From the NCBI GenBank assembly GCA_964017155.1, contig OZ024861.1:52900309-52964308 (forward strand): DNA of 64,000 nt, in the 5' to 3' direction. The position numbers were made by a program, and so were the translations under genes. The notes beneath the pieces were generated by a model. It did no database searches, was not told the origin of the DNA, and saw only the letters and a list, made by a program, of their open reading frames with translations. The DNA is from Oasisia sp. SBJ-2009 (Eukaryota; Annelida; Polychaeta; Sabellida; Siboglinidae). Below, in pieces: positions 2,111-64,000 of the stretch (position 1 is its first letter; the number at the start of each line of letters is the position of its first letter).

Positions 2111-2175
2111 TGCGGAACTACTCCACTAATATAGGGGCTTCAAAAAAACCTAACAATACTACTCTCGATTTCTAC

Positions 2176-2228
2176 AACTATCACCCTGTTAAGGTCGCCA
2201 AATGCCTCGTCACCTCATCTAGTTAGTG
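2176..2228 (+). pseudogene. 28S rRNA fragment at the array edge (R2-site region)
   Basis: First of about 125 copies. Compared with the conserved eukaryotic 28S stretch running from AACTATGACTCTC to TCTAATTAGTG, this copy keeps AACTAT, TTAAGGT, GCCAAATGCCTCGTCA, TCTA and TTAGTG. It has five substitutions (one just after TTAAGGT, A to C) and a 5-bp insertion, CCTCA, before TCTA. About 43 of 48 aligned bases match. The R2 retrotransposon cleaves 28S at TTAAGG/TAGCC, and the homing endonuclease I-PpoI uses the same spot. The 28S reference is from memory. Confidence 0.85.
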
Positions 2229-4211
2229 GTTCCTTATTACTCCCGCCGTTTACCCACCGGTCGGCACGGAATTCTGTTGAAAAGAATGTAGACAGACATT
2301 TACGCTTCCCCAAATGATCCCCGTAGACGGATGGGACTTTGTCGTTTTTCTCAGTTTTCCCGACGTATCACCCTGTTAAGGTCGCCAAATGCCTCGCTCG
2401 TCGTCTAATGATTTTATATTAGTGGTTCCTTATTACTCCCGCCGTTTACCCACCGGTCGGCACGGCACGGCACGGAACTTTGTTGAAACAGGTTTAAACA
2501 GAAATTCTCGTTTCCCCAACTGATCAACCGTAGACGGATCGGACTTTGTCGTTTTCCTCGATTTTCCGAAAGTTGGCAAAATGAAGCGCACGGCCATTGG
2601 GCTTCCTCGGGAGAGTCGTAGTTACTCCCCGTGCGCGACACACGCCCGAGAAGACCGACCGGCGCGTCGAACTTTGCCGTTTTTCTCGACTCGCAGAACT
2701 GATCCCCGCAAACGGATATGATTTAGTCGTTTTCCTCGAGTTTCCGAAAGTTGGCCATATGACGCGCACGGCCATTGCGTTTCCTCGAGAGGGTCGTAGT
2801 TACTCCTCGTGCGCGACACACGCCCAAGAAGACCGACCGGCGCGTCGAACTTTGCCGTTTTTCTCGATTCGCAGAACTGATCCCCCGTAGACGGATAGGA
2901 CTTAGTCGTTTTTCTCGATTTGTTTCAAAAAGTTGGCCAAATGACGCGCACGGCCATTGCGTTTCCTCGAGAGAGTCGTAGTTACTCCCCGTGCGCGACA
3001 CACGCCAGAGAAGACCGACCGGCGCGTCGAACTTTGCCGTTTTTCTCGATTCGCAGAACTGATCCCCCGTAGACGGATAGGACTTAGTCGTTTTTCTCGA
3101 TTTGTTTCCAAAAGTTGGCAAAACGACGCGCCCGGTCGGTCATTCGTCTACATGCACAAGTGATCTCTACCGTCGTCGAGTCCGTCTTTCCCGTCTCTCT
3201 CCCTCCGCCGGCCCGGGCCGGGCCGCGCCGGGCCGGGCCGCGCCGATCAGTTTCCGGCGCTCGGCCGGACTTCGGAACGCGACCGGAGGCAAGGCTTCGG
3301 CGCACACGACCGGGCCGGGCTTCGGCATGCGACCGGCGGCCGGGCTTCGGAACGCGACCAGGCTTCGGCGCACACGACCGGGCCAGGTTTCGGCACGCCG
3401 CTTGCTCAACTGATCCCCCGTAGACGGATTCGGACTTTGTCGTCGTTTTCATCGATTTCTCCAACTATCACCCTGTTAAGGTCGCCAAATGCCTCGTCTC
3501 CTCATCTAGCTAGTGTTTCCTTATTACTCCCGCCATTTACCCACCGGTCGGCACGGAATTCTGTTGAAAAGAATGTAGACAGACATTTACGCTTCCCCAA
3601 CTGATCCCCCGTAGACGGATCGGACTTTGGCGTCGTTTTCCTCGATTTCTCCATCTATCACCCTGTTAAGGTCGCCAAATGCCTCGTCACCTCATCTAGT
3701 TAGTGTTTCCTTATTACTCCCGCCGTTTACCCGCCGGTCGGTACGGAATTCTGTTGAAAAGAATGTAGACAGACATTTACGCTTCCCCAACTGATCCCCC
3801 GTAGACGGATCGGACTTTGTCGTTTTCCTCGATTTTCCGAAAGTTGGCCAAATGACGCGCACGGCCATTGCGTTTCCTCGAGAGGGTCGTAGTTACTCCT
3901 CGTGCGCGACACACGCCCAAGAAGACCGACCGGCGCGTCGAACTTTGCCGTTTTTCTCGATTCGCAGAACTGATCCCCCGTAGACGGATAGGACTTAGTC
4001 GTTTTTCTCGATTTGTTTCAAAAAGTTGGCCAAATGACGCGCACAGCCATTGCGTTTCCTCGAGAGAGTCGTAGTTACTCCCCGTGCGCGACACACGCCA
4101 GAGAAGACCGACCGGCGCGTCGAACTTTGCCGTTTTTCTCGATTCGCAGAACTGATCTCCCGTAGACGGATAGGACTTAGTCGTTTTTCTCGATTGGTTT
4201 CCAAAAGTTGG

Positions 4212-4573
4212 CAAAACGACGCGCCCGGTCGGTCATTCGTCTACATGCACAAGTGATCTCTACCGTCGTCGAGTCCGTCTTTCCCGTCTCTCTCCCTCCG
4301 CCGGCCAGGGCCGGGCCGCGCCGGGCCGGGCCGCGCCGGGCCGGGCCGCGCCGATCAGTTACCGGCGCTCGGCCGGGCTTCGGAACGCGACCGGAGGCAA
4401 GGCTTCGGCGCACACGACCGGGCCGGGCTTCGGCATGCGACCGGCGGCCGGGCTTCGGAACGCGACCAGGCTTCGGTGCACACGACTGGGCCAGGTTTCG
4501 GCACGCCGCTTGCTCAACTGATCCCCAGTAGACTGATTCGGACTTTGTCGTCGTTTTCATCGATTTCTCCAAC
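4212..4573 (+). repeat. C module with a third 15-bp GC unit
   Basis: At 362 bp this is 15 bp longer than the usual 347. The GGGCCGGGCCGCGCC tract near 4308-4352 has three units instead of two, a slippage expansion. Confidence 0.85.
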
Positions 4574-7500
4574 TATCACCCTGTTAAGGTCGCCAAATGC
4601 CTCGTCACCTCATCTAGCTAGTGTTTCCTTATTACTCCCGCCATTTACCCACCGGTCGGCACGGAATTCTGTTGAAAAGAATGTAGACAGACATTTACGC
4701 TTCCCCAACTGATCCCCCGTAGACGGATCGGACTTTGGCGTCGTTTTCCTCTATTTCTCCAACTATCACCCTGTTAAGGTCGCCAAATGCCTCGTCACCT
4801 CATCTAGTTAGTGGTTCCTTATTACTCCCGCCGTTTACCCGCCGGTCGGTACGGAATTCTGTTGAAAAGAATGTAGACAGACATTTACGCTTCCCCAACT
4901 GATCCCCCGTAGACGGATGGGACTTTGTCGTTTTTCTCAGTTTTTCCGACGTATCACCCTGTTAAGGTCGCCAAATGCCTCGCTCGTCGTCTAATGATTT
5001 TATATTAGTGGTTCCTTATTACTCCCGCCGTTTACCCACCGGTCGGCACGGCACGGCACGGAACTTTGTTGAAACAGGTTTAAACAGAAATTATCGTTTC
5101 CCCAACTGATCCCCGTAGACGGATCGGACTTTGTCGTTTTCCTCGATTTTCCGAAAGTTGGCAAAATGACGCGCACGGCCATTGGGCTTCCTCGGGAGAG
5201 TCGTAGTTACTCCCCGTGCGCGACACACGCCCGAGAAGACCGACCGGCGCGTCGAACTTTGCCGTTTTTCTCGATTCGCAGAACTGATCCCCCGCAGACG
5301 GATATGACAGTCGTTTTCCTCGATTTTCCGAAAGTTGGCCAAATGACGCGCACGGCCATTGCGTTTCCTCGAGAGGGTCGTAGTTACTCCTCGTGCGCGA
5401 CACACGCCCGAGAAGACCGACCGGCGCGTCGAACTTTGCCGTTTTTCTCGATTCGCAGAACTGATCCCCCGTAGAAGGATAGGACTTAGTCGTTTTTCTC
5501 GCTTTGTTTCCAAAAGTTGGCAAAACGACGCGCCCGGTCGGTCATTCGTCTACATGCACAAGTGATCTCTACCGTCGTCGAGTCCGTCTTTCCCGTCTCT
5601 CTCCCTCCGCCGGCCCGGGCCGGGCCGCGCCGGGCCGGGCCGCGCCGATCAGTTACCGGCGCTCTGCCGGACTTCGGAACGCGACCGGAGGCAAGGCTTC
5701 GGCGCACACGACCGGGCCGGGCTTCGGCATGCGACCGGCGGCCGGGCTTCGGAACGCGACCAGGCTTCGGCGCACACGACCGGGCCAGGTTTCGGCACGC
5801 CGCTTGCTCAACTGATCCCCCGTAGACGGATTCGGACTTTGTCGTCGTTTTCATCGATTTCTCCAACTATCACCCTGTTAAGGTCGCCAAATGCCTCGTC
5901 TCCTCATCTAGCTAGTGTTTCCTTATTACTCCCGCCATTTACCCACCGGTCGGCACGGAATTCTGTTGAAAAGAATGTAGACAGACATTTACGCTTCCCC
6001 AACTGATCCCCCGTAGACGGATCGGACTTTGGCGTCGTTTTCCTCGATTTCTCCAACTATCACCCTGTTAAGGTCGCCAAATGCCTCGTCACCTCATCTA
6101 GTTAGTGTTTCCTTATTACTCCCGCCGTTTACCCGCCGGTCGGTACGGAATTCTGTTGAAAAGAATGTAGACAGACATTTACGCTTCCCCAACTGATCCC
6201 CCGTAGACGGATCGGACTTTGTCGTTTTCCTCGATTTTCCGAAAGTTGGCAAAATGACGCGCACGGCCATTGGGCTTCCTTGGGAGAGTCGTAGTTACTC
6301 CCCGTGCGCGACACACGCCCGAGAAGACCGACCGGCGCGTCGAACTTTGCCGTTTTTCTCGATTCGCAGAACTGATCCCCCGTAGACGGATAGGACTTGG
6401 TCGTTTTTCTCGATTTGTTTCCAAAAGTTGGCAAAACGACGTGCCCGGTCGGTCATTCGTCTACATGCACAAGTGATCTCTACCGTCGTCGAGTCCGTCT
6501 TTCCCGTCTCTCTCCCTCCGCCGGCCCGGGCCGGGCCGCGCCGGGCCGGGCCGCGCCGATCAGTTTCCGGCGCTCGGCCGGACTTCGGAACGCGACCGGA
6601 GGCAAGGCTTCGGCGCACACGACCGGGCCGGGCTTCGGCATGCGACCGGCGGCCGGGCTTCGGAACGCGACCAGGCTTCGGCGCACACGACTGGGCCAGG
6701 TTTCGGCACGCCGCTTGCTCAACTGATCCCCCGTAGACGGATTCGGACTTTGTCGTCGTTTTCATCGATTTCTCCAACTATCACCCTGTTAAGGTCGCCA
6801 AATGCCTCGTCTCCTCATCTAGCTAGTGTTTCCTTATTACTCCCGCCGTTTACCCGCCGGTCGGTACGGAATTCTGTTGAAAAGAATGTAGACAGACATT
6901 TACGCTTCCCCAACTGATCCCCCGTAGACGGATCGGACTTTGGCGTCGTTTTCCTCGATTTCTCCAACTATCACCCTGTTAAGGTCGCCAAATGCCTCGT
7001 CACCTCATCTAGTTAGTGTTTCCTTATTACTCCCGCCGTTTACCCGCCGGTCGGGACGGAATTCTGTTGAAAAGAATGTAGACAGACATTTACGCTTCTC
7101 CAACTGATCCCCCGTAGACGGATCGGACTTTGTCGTTTTCCTCGATTTTCCGAAAGTTGGCACAATGACGCGCACGGCCATTGTGCTTCCTTGGGAGAGT
7201 CGTAGTTACTCCCCGTGCGCGACACACGCCCGAGAAGACCGACCGGCGCGTCGAACTTTGCCGTTTTTCTCGATTCGCAGAACTGATCCACCGCAGACGG
7301 ATATGACTTAGTCGTTTTCCTCGATTTTCCGAAAGTTGGCCATAAGACGCGCACGGCCATTGTGTTTCCTCGAGAGGGTCGTAGTTACTCCCCTTGCGCG
7401 ACACACGCCCGAGAAGACCGACCAGCGCGTCGAACTTTGCCGTTTTTCTCGATTCGCAGAACTGATCCCCCGTAGACGGATAGGACTTAGTCGTTTTTCT

Positions 7501-7868
7501 CGATTTGTTTCCAAAAGTTGGCAAAACGACGCGCCCGGTCGGTCATTCGTCTACATGCACAAGTAATCTCTACCGTCGTCGAGTCCGTCTTTCCCGTCTC
7601 TCTCCCTCCGCCGGCCAGGGCCGGGCCGCGCCGGGCCGGGCCGCGCCGATCAGTTACCGGCGCTCGGCCGGGCTTCGGAACGCGACCGGAGGCAAGGCTT
7701 CGGCGCACACGACCGGGCCGGGCTTCGGCATGCGACCGGCGGCCGGGCTTCGGAACGCGACCAGGCTTCGGCGCACACGACTGGGCCAGGTTTCGGCACG
7801 CCGCTTGCTCAACTGATCCCCCGTAGACGGATTCGGACTTTGTCGTCGTTTTCATCGATTTCTCCAAC

Positions 7869-8778
7869 TATCACCCTGTTAAGGTCGCCAAATGCCTCGT
7901 CTCCTCATCTAGCTAGTGTTTCCTTATTACTCCCGCCGTTTACCCGCCGGTCGGTACGGAATTCTGTTGAAAAGAATGTAGACAGACATTTACGCTTCCC
8001 CAACTGATCCCCCGTAGACGGATCGGACTTTGGCGTCGTTTTCCTCGATTTCTCCAACTATCACCCTGTTAAGGTCGCCAAATGCCTCGTCACCTCATCT
8101 AGTTAGTGTTTCCTTATTACTCCCGCCGTTTACCCGCCGGTCGGGACGGAATTCTGTTGAAAAGAATGTAGACAGACATTTACGCTTCTCCAACTGATCC
8201 CCCGTAGACGGATCGGACTTTGTCGTTTTCCTCGATTTTCCGAAAGTTGGCCATATGACGCGCACGGCCATTGTGTTTCCTCGAGAGGGTCGTAGTTACT
8301 CCCCTTGCGCGACACACGCCCGAGAAGACCGACCAGCGCGTCGAACTTTGCCGTTTTTCTCGATTCGCAGAACTGATCCCCCGTAGACGGATAGGACTTA
8401 GTCGTTTTCTCGATTTGTTTCCAAAAGTTGGCAAAACGACGCGCCCGGTCGGTCATTCGTCTACATGCACAAGTAATCTCTACCGTCGTCGAGTCCGTCT
8501 TTCCCGTCTCTCTCCCTCCGCCGGCCAGGGCCGGGCCGCGCCGGGCCGGGCCGCGCCGATCAGTTACCGGCGCTCGGCCGGGCTTCGGAACGCGACCGGA
8601 GGCAAGGCTTCGGCGCACACGACCGGGCCGGGCTTCGGCATGCGACCGGCGGCCGGGCTTCGGAACGCGACCAGGCTTCGGCGCACACGACTGGGCCAGG
8701 TTTCGGCACGCCGCTTGCTCAACTGATCCCCCGTAGACGGATTCGGACTTTGTCGTCGTTTTCATCGATTTCTCCAAC
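7869..8778 (+). repeat. 910-bp unit lacking one B module
   Basis: The order is A, A', B', C. The junction near 8250 goes from the A' linker directly to CATATGACGC, removing exactly one 179-bp B module. A further 1-bp deletion shortens the T-run in the B' linker (near 8404). That same 1-bp deletion is seen in the full-length unit at 27527-28615, marking the two as related. Confidence 0.93.
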
Positions 8779-10958
8779 TATCACCCTGTTAAGGTCGCCA
8801 AATGCCTCGTCTCCTCATCTAGCTAGTGTTTCCTAATTACTCCCGCCGTTTACCCGCCGGTCGGTACGGAATTCTGTTGAAAAGAATGTAGACAGACATT
8901 TACGCTTCCCCAACTGATCCCCCGTAGACGGATCGGACTTTGGCGTCGTTTTCCTCGATTTCTCCAACTATCACCCTGTTAAGGTCGCCAAATGCCTCGT
9001 CACCTCATCTAGTTAGTGTTTCCTTATTACTCCCGCCGTTTACCCGCCGGTCGGGACGGAATTCTGTTGAAAAGAATGTAGACAGACATTTACGCTTCCC
9101 CAACTGATCCCCCGTAGACGGATCGGACTTTGTCGTTTTCCTCGATTTTCCGAAAGTTGGCACAATGACGCGCACGGCCATTGTGCTTCCTTGGGAGAGT
9201 CGTAGTTACTCCCCGTGCGCGACACACGCCCGAGAAGACCGACCGGCGCGTCGAACTTTGCCGTTTTTCTCGATTCGCAGAACTGATCCACCGCAGACGG
9301 ATATGACTTAGTCGTTTTCCTCGATTTTCCGAAAGTTGGCCATATGACGCGCACGGCCATTGTGTTTCCTCGAGAGGGTCGTAGTTACTCCCCTTGCGCG
9401 ACACACGCCCGAGAAGACCGACCAGCGCGTCGAACTTTGCCGTTTTTCTCGATTCGCAGAACTGATCCCCCGTAGACGGATAGGACTTAGTCGTTTTTCT
9501 CGATTTGTTTCCAAAAGTTGGCAAAACGACGCGCCCGGTCGGTCATTCGTCTACATGCACAGGTAATCTCTACCGTCGTCGAGTCCGTCTTTCCCGTCTC
9601 TCTCCCTCCGCCGGCCAGGGCCGGGCCGCGCCGGGCCGGGCCGCGCCGATCAGTTACCGGCGCTCGGCCGGGCTTCGGAACGCGACCGGAGGCAAGGCTT
9701 CGGCGCACACGACCGGGCCGGGCTTCGGCATGCGACCGGCGGCCGGGCTTCGGAACGCGACCAGGCTTCGGCGCACACGACTGGGCCAGGTTTCGGCACG
9801 CCGCTTGCTCAACTGATCCCCCGTAGACTGATTCGGACTTTGTCGTCGTTTTCATCGATTTCTCCAACTATCACCCTGTTAAGGTCGCCAAATGCCTCGT
9901 CACCTCATCTAGCTAGTGTTTCCTTATTACTCCCGCCGTTTACCCGCCGGTCGGTACGGAATTCTGTTGAAAAGAATGTAGACAGACATTTACGCTTCCC
10001 CAACTGATCCCCCGTAGACGGATCGGACTTTGGCGTCGTTTTCCTCGATTTCTCCAACTATCACCCTGTTAAGGTCGCCAAATGCCTCGTCACCTCATCT
10101 AGTTAGTGTTTCCTTATTACTCCCGCCGTTTACCCGCCGGTCGGGACGGAATTCTGTTGAAAAGAATGTAGACAGACATTTACGCTTCCCCAACTGATCC
10201 CCCGTAGACGGATCGGACTTTGTCGTTTTCCTCGATTTTCCGAAAGTTGGCACAATGACGCGCACGGCCATTGTGCTTCCTTGGGAGAGTCGTAGTTACT
10301 CCCCGTGCGCGACACACGCCCGAGAAGACCGACCGGCGCGTCGAACTTTGCCGTTTTTCTCGATTCGCAGAACTGATCCACCGCAGACGGATATGACTTA
10401 GTCGTTTTCCTCGATTTTCCGAAAGTTGGCCATATGACGCGCACGGCCATTGTGTTTCCTCGAGAGGGTCGTAGTTACTCCCCTTGCGCGACACACGCCC
10501 GAGAAGACCGACCAGCGCGTCGAACTTTGCCGTTTTTCTCGATTCGCAGAACTGATCCCCCGTAGACGGATAGGACTTAGTCGTTTTTCTCGATTTGTTT
10601 CCAAAAGTTGGCAAAACGACGCGCCCGGTCGGTCATTCGTCTACATGCACAAGTAATCTCTACCGTCGTCGAGTCCGTCTTTCCCGTCTCTCTCCCTCCG
10701 CCGGCCAGGGCCGGGCCGCGCCGGGCCGGGCCGCGCCGATCAGTTACCGGCGCTCGGCCGGGCTTCGGAACGCGACCGGAGGCAAGGCTTCGGCGCACAC
10801 GACCGGGCCGGGCTTCGGCATGCGACCGGCGGCCGGGCTTCGGAACGCGACCAGGCTTCGGCGCACACGACTGGGCCAGGTTTCGGCACGCCGCTTGCTC
10901 AACTGATCCCCCGTAGACGGATTCGGACTTTGTCGTCGTTTTCATCGATTTCTCCAAC

Positions 10959-11148
10959 TATCACCCTGTTAAGGTCGCCAAATGCCTCGTCTCCTCATCT
11001 AGCTAGTGTTTCCTTATTACTCCCGCCGTTTACCCGCCGGTCGGTACGGAATTCTGTTGAAAAGAATGTAGACAGACATTTACGCTTCCCCAACTGATCC
11101 CCCGTAGACGGATCGGACTTTGGCGTCGTTTTCCTCGATTTCTCCAAC
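10959..11148 (+). repeat. Module A (reference)
   Basis: A 190-bp module. It opens with the 28S-derived head, followed by a middle with ACTCCCGCC, TTTACCCGCCGGTCGG and GGAATTCTGTTGAAAAGAATG, then the linker ending GTCGTTTTCCTCGATTTC. In this first A of the unit the head reads TCTCCTCATCTAGCTAGTG, slightly further from 28S than in A'. Confidence 0.93.
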
Positions 11149-11198
11149 TATCACCCTGTTAAGGTCGCCAAATGCCTCGTCACCTCATCTAGTTAGTG
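11146..11198 (+). pseudogene. 28S rRNA-derived head in the reference A' module
   Basis: Matches the 28S R2-target region from AACTAT to TTAGTG with the same five substitutions and 5-bp insertion as the edge copy. The shared changes show that all copies descend from one altered 28S fragment, not from repeated fresh insertion. The head is far too short to act as rRNA. Confidence 0.85.
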
Positions 11199-11340
11199 TT
11201 TCCTTATTACTCCCGCCGTTTACCCGCCGGTCGGGACGGAATTCTGTTGAAAAGAATGTAGACAGACATTTACGCTTCTCCAACTGATCCCCCGTAGACG
11301 GATCGGACTTTGTCGTTTTCCTCGATTTTCCGAAAGTTGG
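11149..11340 (+). repeat. Module A' (reference)
   Basis: A 192-bp sister of A. It keeps the closer 28S match (TCACCTCATCTAGTTAGTG) and ends in a B-type linker tail (GATTTTCCGAAAGTTGG), so the tail depends on which module follows. The CTTCTCC/CTTCCCC diagnostic site lies near 11279. Confidence 0.93.
11280..11330 (+). repeat. Shared inter-module linker (reference)
   Basis: An approximately 50-bp segment present at the end of every A, A-beta, B and C module: AACTGATCCCCCGTAGACGG, then ATCGGACTTTGTCG, then TTTTCCTCGATTT. It contains a short dyad (CCGT-AG-ACGG, flanked by GATCC and GGATC). At roughly five copies per 1090 bp it is the most frequent element of the array and the likeliest substrate for unequal exchange. 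Confidence 0.9.
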
Positions 11341-11519
11341 CACAATGACGCGCACGGCCATTGTGCTTCCTTGGGAGAGTCGTAGTTACTCCCCGTGCGC
11401 GACACACGCCCGAGAAGACCGACCGGCGCGTCGAACTTTGCCGTTTTTCTCGATTCGCAGAACTGATCCACCGCAGACGGATATGACTTAGTCGTTTTCC
11501 TCGATTTTCCGAAAGTTGG
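11341..11519 (+). repeat. Module B (reference)
   Basis: A 179-bp module beginning CACAATGACGCGCACGGCC, with GTCGTAGTTACTCC, GAGAAGACCGACC and GTCGAACTTTGCCG, then a linker with GCAGACGGATATGACTTAG. It shares GTTGGC at its left boundary and TTACTCC at a similar offset with A modules, so A and B are probably diverged copies of one ancestral monomer. Confidence 0.9.
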
Positions 11520-11701
11520 CCATAAGACGCGCACGGCCATTGTGTTTCCTCGAGAGGGTCGTAGTTACTCCCCTTGCGCGACACACGCCCGAGAAGACCG
11601 ACCAGCGCGTCGAACTTTGCCGTTTTTCTCGATTCGCAGAACTGATCCCCCGTAGACGGATAGGACTTAGTCGTTTTTCTCGATTTGTTTCCAAAAGTTG
11701 G
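11520..11701 (+). repeat. Module B' (reference)
   Basis: A 182-bp sister of B, starting CCATAAGACGCGCACGGCC here (CCATATGACG in other units). Its linker ends TCGATTTGTTTCCAAAAGTTGG, the version that precedes C. In edge-type cassettes the equivalent start reads GGCCAAATGACGCGCACGG. Confidence 0.9.
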
Positions 11702-11797
11702 CAAAACGACGCGCCCGGTCGGTCATTCGTCTACATGCACAAGTAATCTCTACCGTCGTCGAGTCCGTCTTTCCCGTCTCTCTCCCTCCGCCGGCCA

Positions 11798-11820
11798 GGG
11801 CCGGGCCGCGCCGGGCCGGG
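11798..11820 (+). other. G-quadruplex-capable tract in module C
   Basis: Four GGG runs (11798-11800, 11803-11805, 11813-11815, 11818-11820) with loops of 2, 7 and 2 nt satisfy the standard G3N1-7 rule on the plus strand. Most of the 55 C modules keep it. Those at 40686, 41791, 42704, 44954, 46059 and 46972 have lost one or more runs. Folding in cells is not shown. Confidence 0.75.
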
Positions 11821-11850
11821 CCGCGCCGATCAGTTACCGGCGCTCGGCCG

Positions 11851-11976
11851 GGCTTCGGAACGCGACCGGAGGCAAGGCTTCGGCGCACACGACCGGGCCG
11901 GGCTTCGGCATGCGACCGGCGGCCGGGCTTCGGAACGCGACCAGGCTTCGGCGCACACGACTGGGCCAGGTTTCGG
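11851..11976 (+). repeat. 25-bp GGCTTCGG subrepeat, six copies
   Basis: GGCTTCGG (GGTTTCGG in the last copy) starts at 11851, 11876, 11901, 11926, 11944 and 11969. Spacings are 25, 25, 25, 18 and 25 bp, so one unit has lost 7 bp. Most units continue with a CGACC or CACGACC. Confidence 0.9.
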
Positions 11977-44344: not shown

Positions 44345-44592
44345 TATCACCCTGTTAAGGTCGCAAAATGCCTCGCTCGTCGTCTAATGATTTTATATTA
44401 GTGGTTCCTTATTACTCCCGCCGTTTACCCACCGGTCGACACGGCCCGGCACGGAACTTTGTTGAAACAGGTTTAAACAGGTATTCTCGTTTCCCCAACT
44501 GAAACAGGTTTAAACAGAAATTCTCGTTTCCCCAACTGATCCCCCGTAGACGGATCGGACTTTGTCGTTTTCCTCGATTTTCCGAAAGTTGG
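44345..44592 (+). repeat. A-beta module with 37-bp internal duplication
   Basis: A 37-bp piece from GAAACAGG to CCCCAACT is present twice (44464-44500, 44501-44537). The first copy reads CAGGTATTCTCG and the second CAGAAATTCTCG, the two known A-beta alleles (compare 42447 and 41356). The module is therefore an exchange product between alleles. It also appears at 48613-48860 and 50508-50755. Confidence 0.88.
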
Positions 44593-44795
44593 CAAAATGA
44601 CGCGCACGGCCATTGGGCTTCCTTGGGAGAGTCGTAGTTACTCCCCGTGCGCGACACACGCCCGAGAAGACCGACCGGCGCGTCGAACTTTGCCGTTTTT
44701 CTCGATTCGCAGAACTGATCCCCCGTAGACGGATCGGACTTTGTCGTTTTCCTCGATTTTCCGAAAGTTGGCAAAATGACGCGCACGGCCATTGC

Positions 44796-47700: not shown

Positions 47701-49002
47701 GTCGCCAAATGCCTCGCTCGTCGTCTAATGATTTTATATTAGTGGTTCCTTATTACTCCCGCCGTTTACCCACCGGTCGGCACGGCACGGCACGGAACTT
47801 TGTTGAAACAGGTTTAAACAGAAATTCTCGTTTCCCCAACTGATCCCCAGTAGACGGATCGGACTTTGTCGTTTTCCTCGATTTTCCGAAAGTTGGCAAA
47901 ATGACGCGCACGGCCATTGGGCTTCCTTGGGAGAGTCGTAGTTACTCCCCGTGCGCGACACACGCCCGAGAAGACCGACCGGCGCGTCGAACTTTGCCGT
48001 TTTTCTCGATTCGCAGAACTGATCCCCCGTAGACGGATAGGACTTAGACGTTTTTCTCGATTTGTTTCGAAAAGTTGGCAAAACGACGCGCCCGGTCGGT
48101 CATTCGTCTACATGCACAAGTGATCTCTACCGTCGTCGAGTCCGTCTTTCCCGTCTCTCTCCCTCCGCCGGCCCGGGCCGGGCCGCGCCGGGCCGGGCCG
48201 CGCCGATCAGTTACCGGCGCTCGGCCGGGCTTCGGAACACGACCGGCGGCAAGGCTTCGGCGCACACGCCCGGGCCGGGCTTCGGCATGCGACCGGCGGC
48301 CGGGCTTCGGAACGCGACCAGGCTTCGGCGCACACGACCGGGCCAGGTTTCGGCACGCCGCTTGCTCAACTGATCCCCCGTAGACGGATCGGACTTTGTT
48401 GTCGTTTTCCTCGATTTCTCCAACTATCACCATGTTAAGGTCGCCAAATGCCTCGTCACCTCATCTAGTTAGTGGTTCCTTATTACTCCCGCCGTTTACC
48501 CGCCGGTCGGTACGGAATTCTGTTGAAAAGAATGTAGACAGACATTTACGCTTCCCCAACTGATCCCCCGTAGACGGATGGGACTTTGTCGTTTTTCTCA
48601 GTTTTTCCGACGTATCACCCTGTTAAGGTCGCCAAATGCCTCGCTCGTCGTCTAATGATTTTATATTAGTGGTTCCTTATTACTCCCGCCGTTTACCCAC
48701 CGGTCGGCATGGCACGGCACGGAACTTTGTTGAAACAGGTTTAAACAGGTATTCTCGTTTCCCCAACTGAAACAGGTTTAAACAGAAATTCTCGTTTCCT
48801 CAACTGATCCCCCGTAGACGGATCGGACTTTGTCGTTTTCCTCGATTTTCCGAAAGTTGGCAAAATGACGCGCACGGCCATTGGGCTTCCTTGGGAGAGT
48901 CGTAGTTACTCCCCGTGCGCGACACACGCCCGAGAAGACCGACCGGCGCGTCGAACTTTGCCGTTTTTCTCGATTCGCAGAACTGATCCCCCGTAGACGG
49001 AT
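44796..49002 (+). repeat. 4.2-kb segment, tandem duplication copy 2
   Basis: Second copy of 40528-44734. Private changes include ATTATGTTG near 45393, CACCTTGTTAAGG near 45491, GCACGACC near 45892, TAGTAAGTGG near 47541 and CACCATGTTAAGG near 48431. After 49002 it enters a C module, where copy 1 enters a second B. A further related stretch (43.4-44.7 kb) recurs at 49.58-50.75 kb, offset 6163 bp. Confidence 0.88.
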
Positions 49003-52000: not shown

Positions 52001-55000
52001 CCCGCAAACGGATATGATTTAGTCGTTTTCCTCGAGTTTCCGAAAGTTGGCCATATGACGCGCACGGCCATTGCGTTTCCTCGAGAGGGTCGTAGTTACT
52101 CCCCGTGCGCGACACACGCCCGAGAAGACCGACCGGCGCGTCGAACTTTGCCGTTTTTCTCGATTCGCAGAACTGATCCCCCGTAGACGGATAGGACTTA
52201 ATCGTTTTTCTCGATTTGTTTCCAAAAGTTGGCAAAACGACGCGCCCGGTCGGTCATTCGTCTACACGCACAAGTGATCTCTACCGTCGTCGAGTCCGTC
52301 TTTCCCGTCTCTCTCCCTCCGCCGGCCCGGGCCGGGCCGCGCCGGGCCGGGCCGCGCCGATCAGTTTCCGGCGCTCGGCCGGGCTTCGGAACGCGACCGG
52401 CGGCAAGGCTTCGGCGCACACGACCGGGCCGGGCTTCGGCATGCGACCGGCGGCCGGGCTTCGGAACGCGACCAGGCTTCGGCGCACACGACCGGGCCAG
52501 GTTTCGGCACGCCGCTTGCTCAACTGATCCCCCGTAGACGGATCGGACTTTGTCGTCGTTTTCATCGATTTCTCCAACTATCACCCTGTTAAGGTCGCCA
52601 AATGCCTCGTCACCTAATCTAGCTAGTGTTTCCTTACTACTCCCGCCATTTACCCACCGGTCGGCACGGAATTCTGTTGAAAAGAATGTAGACAGACATT
52701 TACGCTTCCCCAACTGATCCCCCGTAGACGGATCGGACTTTGGCGTCGTTTTCCTCGATTTCTCCAACTATCACCCTGTTAAGGTCGCCAAATGCCTCGT
52801 CACCTCATCTAGTTAGTGGTTCCTTATTACTCCCGCCGTTTACCCGCCGGTCGGTACGGAATTCTGTTGAAAAGAATGTAGACAGACATTTACGCTTCCC
52901 CAACTGATCCCCCGTAGACGGATGGGACTTTGTCGTTTTTCTCAGTTTTTACGACGTATCACCCTGTTAAGGTCGCCAAATGCCTCGCTCGTCGTCTAAT
53001 GATTTTATATTAGTGGTTCCTTATTACTCCCGCCGTTTACCCACCGGTCGGCACGGCACGGCACGGAACTTTGTTGAAACAGGTTTAAACCGAAATTCTC
53101 GTTTCCCCAACTGATCCCCCGTAGATGGATCGGACTTTGTCGTTTTCCTCGATTTTCCGAAAGTTGGCAAAATGACGCGCACGGCCATTGGGCTTCCTCG
53201 GGAGAGTCGTAGTTACTCCCCGTACGCGACACACGCCCGAGAAGACCGACCGGCGCGTCGAACTTTGCCGTTTTTCTCGATTCGCAGAACTGATCCCCCG
53301 TAGACGGATAGGACTTAGTCGTTTTTCTCGATTTGTTTCCAAAAGTTGGCAAAACGACGCGCCCGGTCGGTCATTCGTCTACATGCACAAGTGATCTCTA
53401 CCGTCGTCGAGTCCGTCTTTCCCGTCTCTCTCCCTCCGCCGGCCAGGGCCGGGCCGCGCCGGGCCGGGCCGCGCCGATCAGTTACCGGCGCTCGGCCGGG
53501 CTTCGGAACGCGACCGGAGGCAAGGCTTCGGCGCACACGACCGGGCCGGGCTTCGGCATGCGACCGGCGGCCGGGCTTCGGAACGCGACCAGGCTTCGGT
53601 GCACACGACTGGGCCAGGTTTCGGCACGCCGCTTGCTCAACTGATCCCCAGTAGACGGATTCGGACTTTGGCGTCGTTTTCCTCGATTTCTCCAACTATC
53701 ACCCTGTTAAGGTCGCCAAATGCCTCGTCACCTCATCTAGCTAGTGTTTCCTTATTACTCCCGCCATTTACTCACCGGTCGGCACGGAATTCTGTTGAAA
53801 AGAATGTAGACAGATATTTACGCTTCCCCAACTGATCCCCCGTAGACGGATCGGACTTTGGCGTCGTTTTCCTCGATTTCTCCAACTATCACCGTGTTAA
53901 GGTCGCCAAATGCCTCGTCACCTCATCTAGTTAGTGGTTCCTTATTACTCCCTCCGTTTACCCACCGGTCGGCACGGAATTCTGTTGAAAAGAATGTAGA
54001 CAGACATTTACGCTTCCCCAACTGATCCCCGTAGACGGATGGGACTTTGTCGTTTTTCTCAGTTTTTCCGACGTATCACCCTGTTAAGGTCGCCAAATGC
54101 CTCGCTCGTCGTCCAATGATTTTATATTAGTGGTTCCTTATTACTCCCGCCGTTTACCCACCGGTCGGCACGGCACGGCACGGAACTTTGTTGAAACAGG
54201 TTTAAACAGAAATTCTCGTTTCCCCAACTGATCCCCCGTAGACGGATCGGACTTTGTCGTTTTCCTCGATTTTCCGAAAGTTGGCAAAATGACGCGCACG
54301 GCCGTTGCGTTTACTCGAGAGGGTCGTAGTTACTCCTCGTGCGCGACACACGCCCGAGAAGACCGACCGGCGCGTCGAACTTTGCCGTTTTTCTCGATTC
54401 GCAGAACTGATCCCCCGCAGACGGATATGACTTAGTCGTTTTCCTCGATTTTCCGAAAGTTGGCCAAATGACGCGCACGGCCATTGCGTTTCCTCGAGAG
54501 GGTCGTAGTTACTCCTCGTGCGCGACACACGCCCAAGAAGACCGACCGGCGCGTCGAACTTTGCCGTTTTTCTCGATTCGCAGAACTGATCCCCCGTAGA
54601 CGGATAGGACTTAGTCGTTTTTCTCGATTTGTTTCAAAAAGTTGGCCAAGTGACGCGCACGGCCATTGCGTTTCCTCGAGAGAGTCGTAGTTACTCCCCG
54701 TGCGCGACACACGCCAGAGAAGACCGACCGGCGCGTCGAACTTTGCCGTTTTTCTCGATTCGCAGAACTGATCCCCCGTAGACGGATAGGACTTAGTCGT
54801 TTTTCTCGATTTGTTTCCAAAAGTTGGCAAAACGACGCGCCCGGTCGGTCATTCGTCTACATGCACAAGTGATCTCTACCGTCGTCGAGTCCGTCTTTCC
54901 CGTCTCTCTCCCTCCGCCGGCCAGGGCCGGGCCGCGCCGGGCCGGGCCGCGCCGATCAGTTACCGGCGCTCGGCCGGGCTTCGGAATGCGACCGGAGGCA

Positions 55001-57224
55001 AGGCTTCGGCGCACACGACCGGGCCGGGCTTCGGCATGCGACCGGCGGCCGGGCTTCGGAACGCGACCAGGCTTCGGCGCACACGACTGGGCCAGGTTTC
55101 GGCACGCCGCTTGCTCAACTGATCCCCCGTAGACTGATTCGGACTTTGTCGTCGTTTTCATCGATTTCTCCAACTATCACCCTGTTAAGGTCGCCAAATG
55201 CCTCGTCACCTCATCTAGCTAGTGTTTCCTTATTACTCCCGCCATTTACCCACCGGTCGGCACGGAATTCTGTTGAAAAGAATGTAGACAGACATTTACG
55301 CTTCCCCAACTGATCCCCCGTAGACGGATCGGACTTTGGCGTCGTTTTCCTCTATTTCTCCAACTATCACCCTGTTAAGGTCGCCAAATGCCTCGTCACC
55401 TCATCTAGTTAGTGGTTCCTTATTACTCCCGCCGTTTACCCGCCGGTCGGTACGGAATTCTGTTGAAAAGAATGTAGACAGACATTTACGCTTCCCCAAC
55501 TGATCCCCCGTAGACGGATGGGACTTTGTCGTTTTTCTCAGTTTTTCCGACGTATCACCCTGTTAAGGTCGCCAAATGCCTCGCTCGTCGTCTAATGATT
55601 TTATATTAGTGGTTCCTTATTACTCCCGCCGTTTACCCACCGGTCGGCACGGCACGGCACGGAACTTTGTTGAAACAGGTTTAAACAGAAATTATCGTTT
55701 CCCCAACTGATCCCCGTAGACGGATCGGACTTTGTCGTTTTCCTCGATTTTCCGAAAGTTGGCAAAATGACGCGCACGGCCATTGGGCTTCCTCGGGAGA
55801 GTCGTAGTTACTCCCCGTGCGCGACACACGCCCGAGAAGACCGACCGGCGCGTCGAACTTTGCCGTTTTTCTCGATTCGCAGAACTGATCCCCCGCAGAC
55901 GGATATGACAGTCGTTTTCCTCGATTTTCCGAAAGTTGGCCAAATGACGCGCACGGCCATTGCGTTTCCTCGAGAGGGTCGTAGTTACTCCTCGTGCGCG
56001 ACACACGCCCGAGAAGACCGACCGGCGCGTCGAACTTTGCCGTTTTTCTCGATTCGCAGAACTGATCCCCCGTAGAAGGATAGGACTTAGTCGTTTTTCT
56101 CGATTTGTTTCCAAAAGTTGGCAAAACGACGCGCCCGGTCGGTCATTCGTCTACATGCACAAGTGATCTCTACCGTCGTCGAGTCCGTCTTTCCCGTCTC
56201 TCTCCCTCCGCCGGCCCGGGCCGGGCCGCGCCGCGCCGGGCCGGGCCGCGCCGATCAGTTACCGGCGCTCTGCCGGACTTCGGAACGCGACCGGAGGCAA
56301 GGCTTCGGCGTACACGACCGGGCCGGGCTTCGGCATGCGACCGGCGGCCGGGCTTCGGAACGCGACCAGGCTTCGGCGCACACGACCGGGCCAGGTTTCG
56401 GCACGCCGCTTGCTCAACTGATCCCCCGTAGACGGATTCGGACTTTGTCGTCGTTTTCATCGATTTCTCCAACTATCACCCTGTTAAGGTCGCCAAATGC
56501 CTCGTCTCCTCATCTAGCTAGTGTTTCCTTATTACTCCCGCCATTTACCCACCGGTCGGCACGGAATTCTGTTGAAAAGAATGTAGACAGACATTTGCGC
56601 TTCCCCAACTGATCCCCCGTAGACGGATCGGACTTTGGCGTCGTTTTCCTCGATTTCTCCAACTATCACCCTGTTAAGGTCGCCAAATGCCTCGTCACCT
56701 CATCTAGTTAGTGTTTCCTTATTACTCCCGCCGTTTACCCGCCGGTCGGTACGGAATTCTGTTGAAAAGAATGTAGACAGACATTTACGCTTCCCCAACT
56801 GATCCCCCGTAGACGGATCGGACTTTGGCGTCGTTTTCCTCGATTTCTCCAACTATCACCCTGTTAAGGTCGCCAAATGCCTCGTCACCTCATCTAGTTA
56901 GTGTTTCCTTATTACTCCCGCCGTTTACCCGCCGGTCGGGACGGAATTCTGTTGAAAAGAATGTAGACAGACATTTACGCTTCCCCAACTGATCCCCCGT
57001 AGACGGATCGGACTTTGTCGTTTTCCTCGATTTTCCGAAAGTTGGCACAATGACGCGCACGGCCATTGTGCTTCCTTGGGAGAGTCGTAGTTACTCCCCG
57101 TGCGCGACACACGCCCGAGAAGACCGACCGGCGCGTCGAACTTTGCCGTTTTTCTCGATTCGCAGAACTGATCCACCGCAGACGGATATGACTTAGTCGT
57201 TTTCCTCGATTTTCCGAAAGTTGG

Positions 57225-57397
57225 CCATATGACGCGCACGGCCATTGTTTCCTCGAGAGGGTCGTAGTTACTCCCCTTGCGCGACACACGCCCGAGAAGA
57301 CCGACCAGCGCGTCGAACTTTGCCGTTTTTCTCGATTCGCAGAACTGATCCCCCGTAGACGGATAGGACTTTGTCGTTTTTCTCAGTTTTTCCGACG
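57225..57397 (+). repeat. Chimeric B module joined directly to A-beta
   Basis: The B start (CCATATGACGCG) runs into its linker and at GTAGACGGATAGGACTTTG switches to the A-type tail TTTTTCTCAGTTTTTCCGACG, followed by A-beta at 57398. The expected C and A modules are missing. A 2-bp deletion (CCATTGTTTCC) lies near 57247. This is the only break in the A-B-C order. Confidence 0.9.
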
Positions 57398-58136
57398 TAT
57401 CACCCTGTTAAGGTCGCCAAATGCCTCGCTCGTCGTCTAATGATTTTATATTAGTGGTTCCTTATTACTCCCGCCGTTTACCCACCGGTCGGCACGGCAC
57501 GGCACGGAACTTTGTTGAAACAGGTTTAAACAGAAATTATCGTTTCCCCAACTGATCCCCGTAGACGGATCGGACTTTGTCGTTTTCCTCGATTTTCCGA
57601 AAGTTGGCAAAATGACGCGCACGGCCATTGGGCTTCCTCGGGAGAGTCGTAGTTACTCCCCGTGCGCGACACACGCCCGAGAAGACCGACCGGCGCGTCG
57701 AACTTTGCCGTTTTTCTCGATTCGCAGAACTGATCCCCCGTAGAAGGATAGGACTTAGTCGTTTTTCTCGATTTGTTTCCAAAAGTTGGCAAAACGACGC
57801 GCCCGGTCGGTCATTCGTCTACATGCACAAGTGATCTCTACCGTCGTCGAGTCCGTCTTTCCCGTCTCTCTCCCTCCGCCGGCCCGGGCCGGGCCGCGCC
57901 GGGCCGGGCCGCGCCGATCAGTTACCGGCGCTCTGCCGGACTTCGGAACGCGACCGGAGGCAAGGCTTCGGCGCACACGACCGGGCCGGGCTTCGGCATG
58001 CGACCGGCGGCCGGGCTTCGGAACGCGACCAGGCTTCGGCGCACACGACCGGGCCAGGTTTCGGCACGCCGCTTGCTCAACTGATCCCCCGTAGACGGAT
58101 TCGGACTTTGTCGTCGTTTTCATCGATTTCTCCAAC

Positions 58137-59226
58137 TATCACCCTGTTAAGGTCGCCAAATGCCTCGTCTCCTCATCTAGCTAGTGTTTCCTTATTACTC
58201 CCGCCATTTACCCACCGGTCGGCACGGAATTCTGTTGAATAGAATGTAGACAGACATTTACGCTTCCCCAACTGATCCCCCGTAGACGGATCGGACTTTG
58301 GCGTCGTTTTCCTCGATTTCTCCAACTATCACCCTGTTAAGGTCGCCAAATGCCTCGTCACCTCATCTAGTTAGTGTTTCCTTATTACTCCCGCCGTTTA
58401 CCCGCCGGTCGGTACGGAATTCTGTTGAAAAGAATGTAGACAGACATTTACGCTTCCCCAACTGATCCCCCGTAGACGGATCGGACTTTGTCGTTTTCCT
58501 CGATTTTCCGAAAGTTGGCACAATGACGCGCACGGCCATTGTGCTTCCTTGGGAGAGTCGTAGTTACTCCCCGTGCGCGACACACGCCCGAGAAGACCGA
58601 CCGGCGCGTCGAACTTTGCCGTTTTTCTCGATTCGCAGAACTGATCCACCGCAGACGGATATGACTTAGTCGTTTTCCTCGATTTTCCGAAAGTTGGCCA
58701 TATGACGCGCACGGCCATTGTGTTTCCTCGAGAGGGTCGTAGTTACTCCCCTTGCGCGACACACGCCCGAGAAGACCGACCAGCGCGTCGAACTTTGCCG
58801 TTTTTCTCGATTCGCAGAACTGATCCCCCGTAGACGGATAGGACTTAGTCGTTTTTCTCGATTTGTTTCCAAAAGTTGGCAAAACGACGCGCCCGGTCGG
58901 TCATTCGTCTACATGCACAAGTAATCTCTACCGTCGTCGAGTCCGTCTTTCCCGTCTCTCTCCCTCCGCCGGCCAGGGCCGGGCCGCGCCGGGCCGGGCC
59001 GCGCCGATCAGTTACCGGCGCTCGGCCGGGCTTCGGAACGCGACCGGAGGCAAGGCTTCGGCGCACACGACCGGGCCGGGCTTCGGCATGCGACCGGCGT
59101 CCGGGCTTCGGAACGCGACCAGGCTTCGGCGCACACGACTGGGCCAGGTTTCGGCACGCCGCTTGCTCAACTGATCCCCAGTAGACGGATTCGGACTTTG
59201 GCGTCGTTTTCCTCGATTTCTCCAAC
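58137..59226 (+). repeat. Isolated canonical 1090-bp unit in the outer block
   Basis: Exactly 1090 bp in the order A, A', B, B', C, with the block-1 hallmarks CACAATGACGCGC, TTGTGCTTCCTTGG and CCCTTGCGCG. It lies about 18 kb beyond the last unit of block 2, among edge-type cassettes. Pieces of another such unit are at about 56664-57350. It suggests either the ancestral position of the 1090-bp form or long-range exchange. Confidence 0.9.
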
Positions 59227-62200
59227 TATCACCCTGTTAAGGTCGCCAAATGCCTCGTCACCTCATCTAGCTAGTGTTTCCTTATTACTCCCGCCATTTA
59301 CCCACCGGTCGGCACGGAATTCTGTTGAAAAGAATGTAGACAGATATTTACGCTTCCCCAACTGATCCCCCGTAGACGGATCGGACTTTGGCGTCGTTTT
59401 CCTCGATTTCTCCAACTATCACCTTGTTAAGGTCGCCAAATGCCTCGTCGCCTCATCTAGTTAGTGGTTCCTTATTACTCCCGCCGTTTACCCACCGGTC
59501 GGCACGGAATTCTGTTGAAAAGAATGTAGACAGACATTTACGCTTCCCCAACTGATCCCCGTAGACGGATGGGACTTTGTCGTTTTTCTCAGTTTTTCCG
59601 ACGTATCACCTTGTTAAGGTCGCCAAATGCCTCGCTCGTCGTCCAATGATTTTATATTAGTGGTTCCTTGTTACTCCCGCCGTTTACCCACCGGTCGGCA
59701 CGGCACGGCACGGAACTTTGTTGAAACAGGTTTAAACATAAATTCTCGTTTCCCCAACTGATCCCCCGTAGACGGATCGGACTTTGTCTTTTTTCTCGAT
59801 TTTCCGAAAGTTGGCAAAATGACGCGCACGGCCGTTGCGTTTCCTCGAGAGGGTCGTAGTTACTCCTCGTGCGCGACACACGCCCGAGAAGACCGACCGG
59901 CGCGTCGAACTTTGCCGTTTTTCTCGATTCGCAGAACTGATCCCCCGCAGACGGATATGACTTAGTCGTTTTGCCCGATTTTCCGAAAGTTGGCCAAATG
60001 ACGCGCACGGCCATTGCGTTTCCTCGAGAGGGTCGTAGTTACTCCTCGTGCGCGACACACGCCCAAGAAGACCGACCGGCGCGTCGAACTTTGCCGTTTT
60101 TCTCGATTCGCAGAACTGATCCCCCGTAGACGGATAGGACTTAGTCGTTTTTCTCGATTTGTTTCAAAAAGTTGGCCAAATGACTCGCACGGCCATTGCG
60201 TTTCCTCGAGAGAGTCGTAGTTACTCCCCGTGCGCGACACACGCCAAAGAAGACCGACCGGCGCGTCGAACTTTGCCGTTTTTCTCGATTCGCAGAACTG
60301 ATCCCCCGTAGACGGATAGGACTTAGTCGTTTTTCTCGATTTGTTTCCAAAAGTTGGCAAAACGACGCGCCCGGTCGGTCATTCGTCTACATGCACAAGT
60401 GATCTCTACCGTCGTCGAGTCCGTCTTTCCCGTCTCTCTCCCTCCGCCGGCCAGGGCCGGGCCGCGCCGGGCCGGGCCGCGCCGATCAGTTACCGGCGCT
60501 CGGCCGGGCTTCGGAACGCGACCGGAGGCAAGACTTCGGCGCACACGACCGGGCCGGGCTTCGGCATGCGACCGGCGGCCGGGCTTCGGAACGCGACAAG
60601 GCTTCGGCGCACACGACTGGGCCAGGTTTCGGCACGCCGCTTGCTCAACTGATCCCCCGTAGACTGATTCGGACTTTGGCGTCGTTTTCCTCGATTTCTC
60701 CAACTATCACCCTGTTAAGGTCGCCAAATGCCTCGTCACCTCATCTAGTTAGCGGTTCCTTATTACTCCCGCCGTTTACCCGCCGGTCGGTACGGAATTC
60801 TGTTGAAAAGAATGTAGACAGACATTTACGCTTCCCCAACTGATCCCCCGTAGACGGATGGGACTTTGTCGTTTTTCTCAGTTTTTCCGACGTATCACCC
60901 TGTTAAGGTCGCCAAATGCCTCGCTCGTCGTCTAATGATTTTTTATTAGTGGTTCCTTATTACTCCCGCCGTTTACCCACCGGTCGGCACGGCACGGCAC
61001 GGCACGGAACTTTGTTGAAACAGGTTTAAACAGAAATTCTCGTTTCCCCAACTGATCCCCCGTAGACGGATCGGACTTTGTCGTTTTCCTCGATTTTCCG
61101 AAAGTTGGCAAAATGACGCGCACGGCCATTGGGCTTCCTTGGGAGAGTCGTAGTTACTCCCCGTGCGCGACACACGCCCGAGAAGACCGACCGGCGCGTC
61201 GAACTTTGCCGTTTTTCTCGATTCGCAGAACTGATCCCCCGTAGACGGATAGGACTTAGTCGTTTTTCTCGATTTGTTTCCAAAAGTTGGCAAAACGACG
61301 CGCCCGGTCGGTCATTCGTCTACATGCACAAGTGATCTCTATCGTCGTCGAGTCCGTCTTTCCCGTCTCTCTCCCTCCGCCGGCCCGGGCCGGGCCGCGC
61401 CGGGCCGGGCCGGGCCGCGCCGATCAGTTACCGGCGCTCGGCCGGGCTTCGGAACGCGACCGGAGGCAAGGCTTCGGCGCACACGACCGGGCCGGGCTTC
61501 GGCATGCGACCGGCGGCCGGGCTTCGGAACGCGACCAGGCTTCGGCGCACTCGACCGGGCCAGATTTCGGCACGCCGCTTGCTCAACTGATCCCCCGTAG
61601 ACGGATTCGGACTTTGTCGTCGTTTTCATCGATTTCTCCAACTATCACACTGTTAAGGTCGCCAAATGCCTCGACTCCTCATCTAGCTAGTGTTTCCTTA
61701 TTACTCCCGCCATTTACCCACCGGTCGGCACGGAATTCTGTTGAAAAGAATGTAGACAGACATTTACGCTTCCCCAACTGATCCCCCGTAGACGGATCGG
61801 ACTTTGGCGTCGTTTTCCTCGATTTCTCCAACTATCACCCTGTTAAGGTCGCCAAATGCCTCGTCACCTCATCTAGTTAGTGGTTCCTTATTACTCCCGC
61901 CGTTTACCCGCCGGTCGGTACGGAATTCTGTTGAAAAGAATGTAGACAGACATTTACGCTTCCCCAACTGATCCCCCGTAGACGGATGGGACTTTGTCGT
62001 TTTTCTCAGTTTTTCCGACGTATCACCCTGTTAAGGTCGCCAAATGCCTCGCTCGTCGTCTAATGATTTTATATTAGTGGTTCCTTATTAATCCCGCCGT
62101 TTACCCACCGGTCGGCACGGCACGGCACAGAACTTTGTTGAAACACGTTTAAACAGAAATTCTCGTTTCCCCAACTGATCCCCCGTAGACGGATCGGACT

Positions 62201-62413
62201 TTGTCGTTTTCCTCGATTTTCCGAAAGTTGGCAAAATGACGCGCACGGCCATTGGGCTTCCTTGGGAGAGTCGTAGTTACTCCCCGTGCGCGACACACGC
62301 CCGAGAAGACCGACCGGCGCGTCGAACTTTGCCGTTTTTCTCGATTCGCAGAACTGATCCCCCGTAGACGGATAGGACTTAGTCGTTTTTCTCGATTTGT
62401 TTCCAAAAGTTGG

Positions 62414-64000
62414 CAAAACGACGCGCCCGGTCGGTCATTCGTCTACATGCACAAGTGATCTCTACCGTCGTCGAGTCCGTCTTTCCCGTCTCTCTCCCTC
62501 CGCCGGCCCGGGCCGGGCCGCGCCGGGCCGGGCCGCGCCGATCAGTTACCGGCGCTCGGACGGGCTTCGGAACGCGACCGGCGGCAAGGCTTCGGCGCAC
62601 ACGCCCGGGCCGGGCTTCGGCATGCGACCGGCGGCCGGGCTTCGGAACGCGACCAGGCTTCGGCGCACACGACCGGGCCAGGTTTCGGCACGCCGCTTGC
62701 TCAACTGATCCCCCGTAGACGGATCGGACTTTGTCGTCGTTTTCCTCGATTTCTCCAACTATCACCCTGTTAAGGTCGCCAAATGCCTCGTCACCTCATC
62801 TAGTTAGTGGTTCCTTATTACTCCCTCCGTTTACCCGCCGGTCGGTACGGAATTCTGTTGAAAAGAATGTAGACAGACATTTACGCTTCCCCAACTGATC
62901 CCCCGTAGACGGATGGGACTTTGTCGTTTTTCTCAGTTTTTCCGACGTATCAGCCTGTTTAGGTCGCCAAATGCCTCGCTCGTCGTCTAATGATTTTATA
63001 TTAGTGGTTCCTTATTACTCCCGCCGTTTACCCACCGGTCGGCACGGCACGGCACGGCACGGAACTTTGTTGAAACAGGTTTAAACAGAAATTCTCGTTT
63101 CCCCAACTGATCCCCCGTAGACGGATCGGACTTTGTCGTTTTCCTCGATTTTCCGAAAGTTGGCAAAATGACGCGCACGGCCATTGGGCTTCCTCGGGAG
63201 AGTCGTAGTTACTCCCCGTGCGCGACACAAGCCCGAGAAGACCGACCGGCGCGTCGAACTTTGCCGTTTTTCTCGATTCGTAGAACTGATCCCCCGCAGA
63301 CGGATATGACTTAGTCGTTTTCCTCGATTTTCCGAAAGTTGGCCAAATGACGCGCACGGCCATTGCGTTTCCTCGAGAGGGTCGTAGTTACTCCTCGTGC
63401 GCGACACACGCCCGAGAAGACCGACCGGCGCGTCGAACTTTGCCGTTTTTCTCGATTCGCAGAACTGATCCCCCGTAGACGGATAGGACTTAGTCGTTTT
63501 TCTCGATTTGTTTCCAAAAGTTGGCAAAACGACGCGCCCGGTCGGTCATTCGTCTACATGCACAAGTGATCTCTACCGTCGTCGAGTCCGTCTTTCCCGT
63601 CTCTCTCCCTCCGCCGGCCCGGGCCGGGCCGCGCCGGGCCGGGCCGCGCCGATCAGTTACCGGCGCTCGGACGGGCTTCGGAACGCGACCGGCGGCAAGG
63701 CTTCGGCGCACACGCCCGGGCCGGGCTTCGGCATGCGACCGGCGGCCGGGCTTCGGAACGCGACCAGGCTTCGGCGCACACGACCGGGCCAGGTTTCGGC
63801 ACGCCGCTTGCTCAACTGATCCCCCGTAGACGGATCGGACTTTGTCGTCGTTTTCCTCGATTTCTCCAACTATCACCCTGTTAAGGTCGCCAAATGCCTC
63901 GTCACCTCATCTAGTTAGTGGTTCCTTATTACTCCCTCCGTTTACCCGCCGGTCGGTACGGAATTCTGTTGAAAAGAATGTAGACAGACATTTACGCTTC
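62414..64000 (+). repeat. 1111-bp terminal repeat period
   Basis: 62414-62889 recurs at 63525-64000, offset 1111 bp, sharing the rare GCTCGGACGGGC and CTCCCTCCGTTTACC. The period spans C, A, A-beta, B, B. It is a local expansion still in progress at the window edge. Confidence 0.85.

Follow-up and report, generated by a model that had tools for sequence, protein, structure and literature searches.

The 64,000-nucleotide stretch of DNA analysed here (the window) is largely occupied by a tandem array in which a piece of the 28S rRNA gene recurs. This raises the question of how the target site of the R2 retrotransposon, a stretch which we take to be the I-PpoI target site as well, became part of a satellite and whether it has any role there. 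The original prediction, made from the sequence of the window, proposed that about 125 copies of this fragment head the array modules, and a search for the core TTAAGGT.GCCAAATGCCTCG with at most three substitutions indeed found 125 copies in the window, the first at position 2189. Their placement at the head of each module did not hold, as a spacer that these modules have in common with two other forms, B and C, comes first.

Architecture of the array

The array extends over positions 2164..64000 on the plus strand, with the left edge read by eye, and runs beyond the end of the window. In the 64-kb window, 281 spacer anchors with the opening CTGATCCCCCGTAGACGGAT (up to four errors allowed) delimit 280 spacer-to-spacer intervals of 169 to 369 bp. 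Four forms can be distinguished among the corresponding monomers (98 A, 26 A-beta, 101 B and 55 C), and a further, incomplete A lies at the left edge. A spacer of ~50 bp is common to all four, indicating that A, A-beta, B and C belong to one monomer family. Monomers are generally ~180-210 bp long, and C monomers ~350 bp. The 280 head-to-tail monomers span about 62 kb, a long array of the kind expected of satellite DNA, and the sense and antisense 28S arms reveal that the unit is partly of rDNA origin.

The monomers are arranged in a higher-order unit, A-A-B-B-C, of about 1,090 bp. Fifteen consecutive units are found at 8732..25081 and a second run of nine consecutive units at 27480..37289 (both on the plus strand, with the ends computed as 15 x 1,090 and 9 x 1,090). 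From position 13831 onwards, ten successive comparisons between a C monomer and the next C gave 100% identity, a sign of recent expansion. Such homogenised blocks fit unequal exchange.

The C form, exemplified by the monomer at 3054..3404 (plus strand), consists of the shared spacer and a GC-rich block without significant 28S similarity. In this GC-rich block, for example at 3207-3394, C monomers contain internal repeats of 15 bp and about 25 bp.

Sense and antisense 28S arms

The sense arm of A corresponds to 28S positions -19 to +29 relative to the first-strand nick, with 43 of 48 positions identical, five substitutions and a 5-bp insertion, as had been proposed for the A modules. The alignment was confirmed on the 28S target of 84 bp given in PMC12180492, and this target and eight eukaryotic rDNA contigs served as references. 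The first copy of the arm, including the insertion, is located at 2176..2228 (plus strand), and an A monomer with one further change (ATCTAT for AACTAT) carries it at 3653..3705 (plus strand). The substitutions are found at -13, -10, -7 and +2 and within TCTAATTAG. The suggestion that the changes are common to nearly all copies is correct for the first four, which A and A-beta share, but not for the fifth substitution and the 5-bp insertion, which only A copies carry (98 of the 124 that were classified). A-beta has its own insert of ~10 bp between TCTAAT and TTAGTG, as in the example at 4944..5041 (plus strand), where the sense arm with this insert is followed by the antisense arm. A sixth change, TCTAGCTAGTG, is present in 44 copies. 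The assumed direct homology to 28S is well founded: the consensus scores of A and A-beta were reached by none of 20,000 dinucleotide shuffles each (fitted P 4e-13 and 1e-9), and BLAST against the eight eukaryotic rDNA contigs placed A at the same position in 28S, with a best E of 5e-9.

This sense arm is the single 28S piece that had originally been recognised, but the antisense partner of every copy had been missed. Every A and A-beta copy (125 of 125) combines neighbouring parts of a single 28S region in both orientations, each sense core being followed by an antisense arm that covers 28S -38 to -18 with up to 21 of 21 positions identical. This arm reads TTACTCCCGCCGTTTACCC or a variant with at most three changes and is the reverse complement of the 28S sequence that immediately precedes the R2 site. 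The distance from the core to the antisense arm is fixed at 48 bp in 99 copies, 57 bp in 24 and 55 bp in two. When up to three substitutions are allowed, the window contains 125 antisense arms in total, none of them without its sense core; there are 105 occurrences of the exact antisense 19-mer and 72 of the 21-mer with a terminal GC. In the first copy, the arm is located at 2237..2255 (minus strand) and agrees in 19 of 19 positions with the 28S sequence adjoining the R2 site on its upstream side, while the arm TTACTCCCGCCGTTTACCCGC of an A monomer at 3714..3734 (minus strand) matches the reverse-complement 28S in 21 of 21 positions. The fitted P for the antisense arm, from 20,000 shuffles each, is 3e-7 in A and 2e-6 in A-beta. 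The proposed amplification of one altered R2-site 28S fragment is supported, but as an inverted pair and not as a single head.

B monomers contain an antisense stretch from about -25 to the nick (fitted P 2e-5, 20,000 shuffles). Its commonest form, CCTTGGGAGAGTCGTAGTTACTCCC, is present in 35 of 101 copies and matches 28S in 22 of 25 positions; the copy CCTcgAGAGAGTCgTAGTTACTCCC at 2965..2989 (minus strand), likewise with 22 of 25 matches, ends at the R2 nick. A gapped alignment of lower identity continues past the nick for ~19 bases, suggesting that the B antisense arm, which reaches the nick, probably passes beyond it. Against the real rDNA contigs, the match of the B consensus was limited to 19 bp on the upstream side (E 0.015). 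A clear sense arm is absent from B monomers: the sense P of the B consensus is 0.03, and under cheap gaps the sense score of the commonest form was reached by 280 of 4,000 shuffles and that of B1, a minor B form (14 of 101 copies), by 3 of 4,000. In C, neither arm was seen (fitted P 0.85 and 0.28), and this form provides an internal negative control. Among the eight rDNA contigs, matches of A, A-beta and B below E 0.5 are restricted to the R2 region, which is hit in both orientations. The best match of these three forms outside the R2 region is that of B to contig L008 (E 0.62), and the best E values of C and of the left flank are 0.79 and 0.09; we take these matches to be due to chance.

Origin of the paired arms

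The constant co-occurrence of the two orientations points to a fold-back of the R2-site region. The array is probably an rDNA-derived satellite that was seeded by a fold-back 28S fragment, spread via unequal exchange and is now a passive repeat. In the founder unit, a sense arm starting at -19 and extending to +29 or beyond would have been followed by a turn and an antisense arm leading back to -38. A and A-beta would have retained the sense arm together with the outer antisense arm, with 12 bp of the inner antisense arm missing. B would have retained the antisense arm as far as the nick, and probably beyond, while most of its sense arm was lost. Each of these changes would break the palindrome, and ordinary unequal exchange could then have multiplied the monomers into A-A-B-B-C units. 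An ancestor with both full arms was not observed in any relative.

Alignment scores are consistent with this origin. Modelled as a fold-back, A scores 103.75 versus 66.75 for the best single orientation and A-beta 87.5 versus 57.25, with shuffle maxima of 46.2 and 50.8, respectively. The gain is small in the commonest B form (57.75 versus 52.5) and larger in B1 (59 versus 41), where the fold-back alignment borrows spacer letters; the score of C is not significant (reached by 178 of 3,000 shuffles). As for the turn, the strand may have snapped back at a short palindrome, CGTCA-TCTAATTAG-TGACG, that is present in 28S itself at +14 to +32, and could then have primed its own copy; a cut at the R2 site may have contributed to this step. 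The best-scoring turns lie near the 28S palindrome. Many turns score alike, however, and among 3,245 turns the modelled one, for which the scored sequence was short of one base at the turn, ranks 54 in A, 448 in A-beta, 109 in B and 62 in B1. The alignments thus leave the turn unfixed, and a snap-back at the palindrome can be suggested rather than asserted.

The arms could instead stem from a sense and an antisense 28S piece that became neighbours through capture or rearrangement, such as an inversion that had a breakpoint near -18, and no palindromic intermediate would then be involved. The arms of A split 28S nearly exactly, the sense arm starting at -19 and the antisense arm ending at -18, and because they overlap by only 2 bp, A alone could consist of two adjacent pieces; the weak sense arm of B is also in line with this explanation. 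We nevertheless regard it as rather unlikely, since the B antisense stretch (about -25 to the nick) overlaps the range that is held as sense in A. The antisense arm must consequently once have been longer than a simple partition predicts, and an inverted duplication is the simpler story. This larger overlap between the orientations arises from the comparison of A with B, and not within A. In our judgement, two independent captures out of one rDNA part of ~70 bp are also improbable.

Compared with this, a mobile ancestor is hardly credible, i.e., a SINE-like or R2-derived element with a 28S head that later became tandem, even though SINEs headed by the 28S 3' end (PMC8010984) and R2 families whose 3' UTR includes 28S-derived sequence (PMC5035012) are known. 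The original prediction had considered a SINE-like element, which was not supported: within the window the copies are exclusively tandem, ARAGORN detected no tRNA genes, and a pol III B box (up to two mismatches) is absent from the four consensuses. Matches to the A-box were single ones, in B (plus strand) and in C (plus and minus strand). No HDV-like fold was matched on either strand of A, A-beta and B by a self-made descriptor that is uncalibrated on R2 ribozymes, and Rfam gave no match at gathering score in a search that is insensitive to short pieces and also left the 28S arms unreported. The other suggested source, a truncated rDNA/R2 junction, likewise found no support. With all 280 spacer intervals at 369 bp or less, there is no room for an R2 element, and neither the constant arm spacing and the interval lengths nor Rfam revealed R2 sequence next to the 28S nick. 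For A, in which AAAC comes after TTAAGG, a junction located precisely at the R2 nick was considered and dropped, as the commonest B form can be aligned in antisense past the nick.

Two weak Rfam matches to narK (E up to 10, positions 3400-5900) are far below the gathering score and were rejected. The same applies to a protein-coding array, as one ORF of the window and the predicted protein P0094 were scanned and matched no Pfam family. By eye, a single ORF reads the B arm in two different frames, and neither coding capacity nor a sign of mobility was apparent in the array.

Present role, relatives and surroundings

The array most likely has no specific effect today and is a passive repeat. It had been proposed to act as a decoy or landing pad, the copies drawing R2 protein off the rDNA or offering it a harmless insertion site. 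The well-kept surroundings of the nick in 125 copies would suit such a function, which is nonetheless very doubtful. As the core search requires an uninterrupted nick, occupancy was judged from the antisense arms, 125 of 125 of which accompany a sense core, and from the 280 intervals, which are all 369 bp or shorter; by these measures, no interrupted R2 site was found within the array in the window. The exact target strings TTAAGGTAGCCAAATG and CTCTCTTAAGGTAGC do not occur in the window either. The target stretch of A from -19 to +15 carries four changes (three in -19..-1 and one at +2), and beside the sense arm 28S upstream of -19 is missing; the avian A-clade R2 proteins described in PMC12180492 cover an extended upstream surface. 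Selection for the arm sequences was also rejected, as the arms are not significantly more conserved than other columns (72 of 76 versus 93 of 109 ungapped columns identical between A and A-beta, Fisher P 0.054). The array is probably a passive fossil and not a working trap.

Within one mismatch, no CENP-B box was found in the monomers. If the plus strand is transcribed at all, most A units would give rise to RNA with 19-21 nt that are perfectly antisense to the 28S rRNA immediately before the R2 site. It is conceivable, though extremely unlikely, that the array feeds small RNAs acting on 28S/R2 co-transcripts, as a guide locus against R2-interrupted rRNA genes whose seed was a fold-back at an R2 cut.

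A query with an array ORF retrieved 91 predicted proteins, of which four are assigned to the window itself, from contigs of 45 distinct sizes up to 685,528 bp, and a query with an A-type protein gave 32 matches, one of them from the window. Of the 119 predicted proteins fetched, which include eight relatives of the flank gene, 83 contain one or both arm peptides when up to four substitutions are allowed; both are present in 19, 16 at one spacing and three at another. Viral contigs gave no match to two exact patterns or to the flank protein, and positions 3405-5900 of the window had no match among phages (distant) or plasmids (near). The genome-contig scans from which the rDNA contigs were obtained used 28S patterns.

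Among the matches listed in the open-licence PMC literature, there is no 28S R2-site or fold-back satellite, and four satellite strings were not found printed in this literature, while two plain 28S strings were, in one and two papers, respectively. Satellites derived from the IGS are discussed in PMC10257491; like these, the array presents rDNA in long tandem repeats, also outside the rRNA genes. In contrast to the spacer-derived or spacer-located satellites considered there, it contains a conserved coding piece of ~70 bp at the R2 site, in both orientations. The R1/R2 fusion array outside the rDNA of Drosophila simulans and the R1 arrays, both described in PMC2718515, are similar in being tandem repeats that result from events at 28S insertion sites, but they contain element sequence, and none was recognised here. 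Repeats carrying 28S sequence are also exemplified by the R2 families with 28S-derived sequence in their 3' UTR in PMC5035012, which are retrotransposons, whereas the present array shows neither coding capacity nor a sign of mobility. SINE28, as presented in PMC8010984, is a short repeat with a 28S part as well; it is mobile and contains the 28S 3' end, whereas here the R2 site is repeated in tandem. The satellite seed would be traceable to one conserved ~70-bp stretch at the cutting site of a retrotransposon, present in both orientations, of which two monomer types appear to have preserved different arms. Should there be relatives in which the arms are complete, one could test whether satellites are founded by breaks at such sites. 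Arrays of this type can give misleading results in searches for R2 sites and with short 28S probes.

The left flank contains an (AC)34 microsatellite at 177-244 and, just left of the array, a tandem duplication of about 255 bp at 1448-1960 (identity 96% over 170 nt and 98% over 87 nt). The 184-aa ORF at 688-1242 (minus strand) encodes a Replication factor-A C-terminal domain (Rep_fac-A_C, Pfam E 4e-9). It has eight database matches, one with 99% and seven with 58-74% identity, suggesting that the gene is multicopy and perhaps transposon-borne. In its relative P0008, the domain (a weak match, under the Pfam cut-off) is joined to a DUF1759/gag-like retrotransposon part. This fusion, the Rep_fac-A_C gene and the 28S sequence of the array indicate a eukaryotic source, for which an animal can be guessed. 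The reference contigs L001-L008 are eukaryotic 28S contigs inside eight bacterial genome records, apparently as contamination. Rfam on six of them (L003 and L005 being left out) identified LSU_rRNA_eukarya in six of six and SSU_rRNA_eukarya in four of six. At L006:5392-5807, Rfam matched a group I intron in the 28S gene that overlaps the R2-site stretch at 5387-5423.
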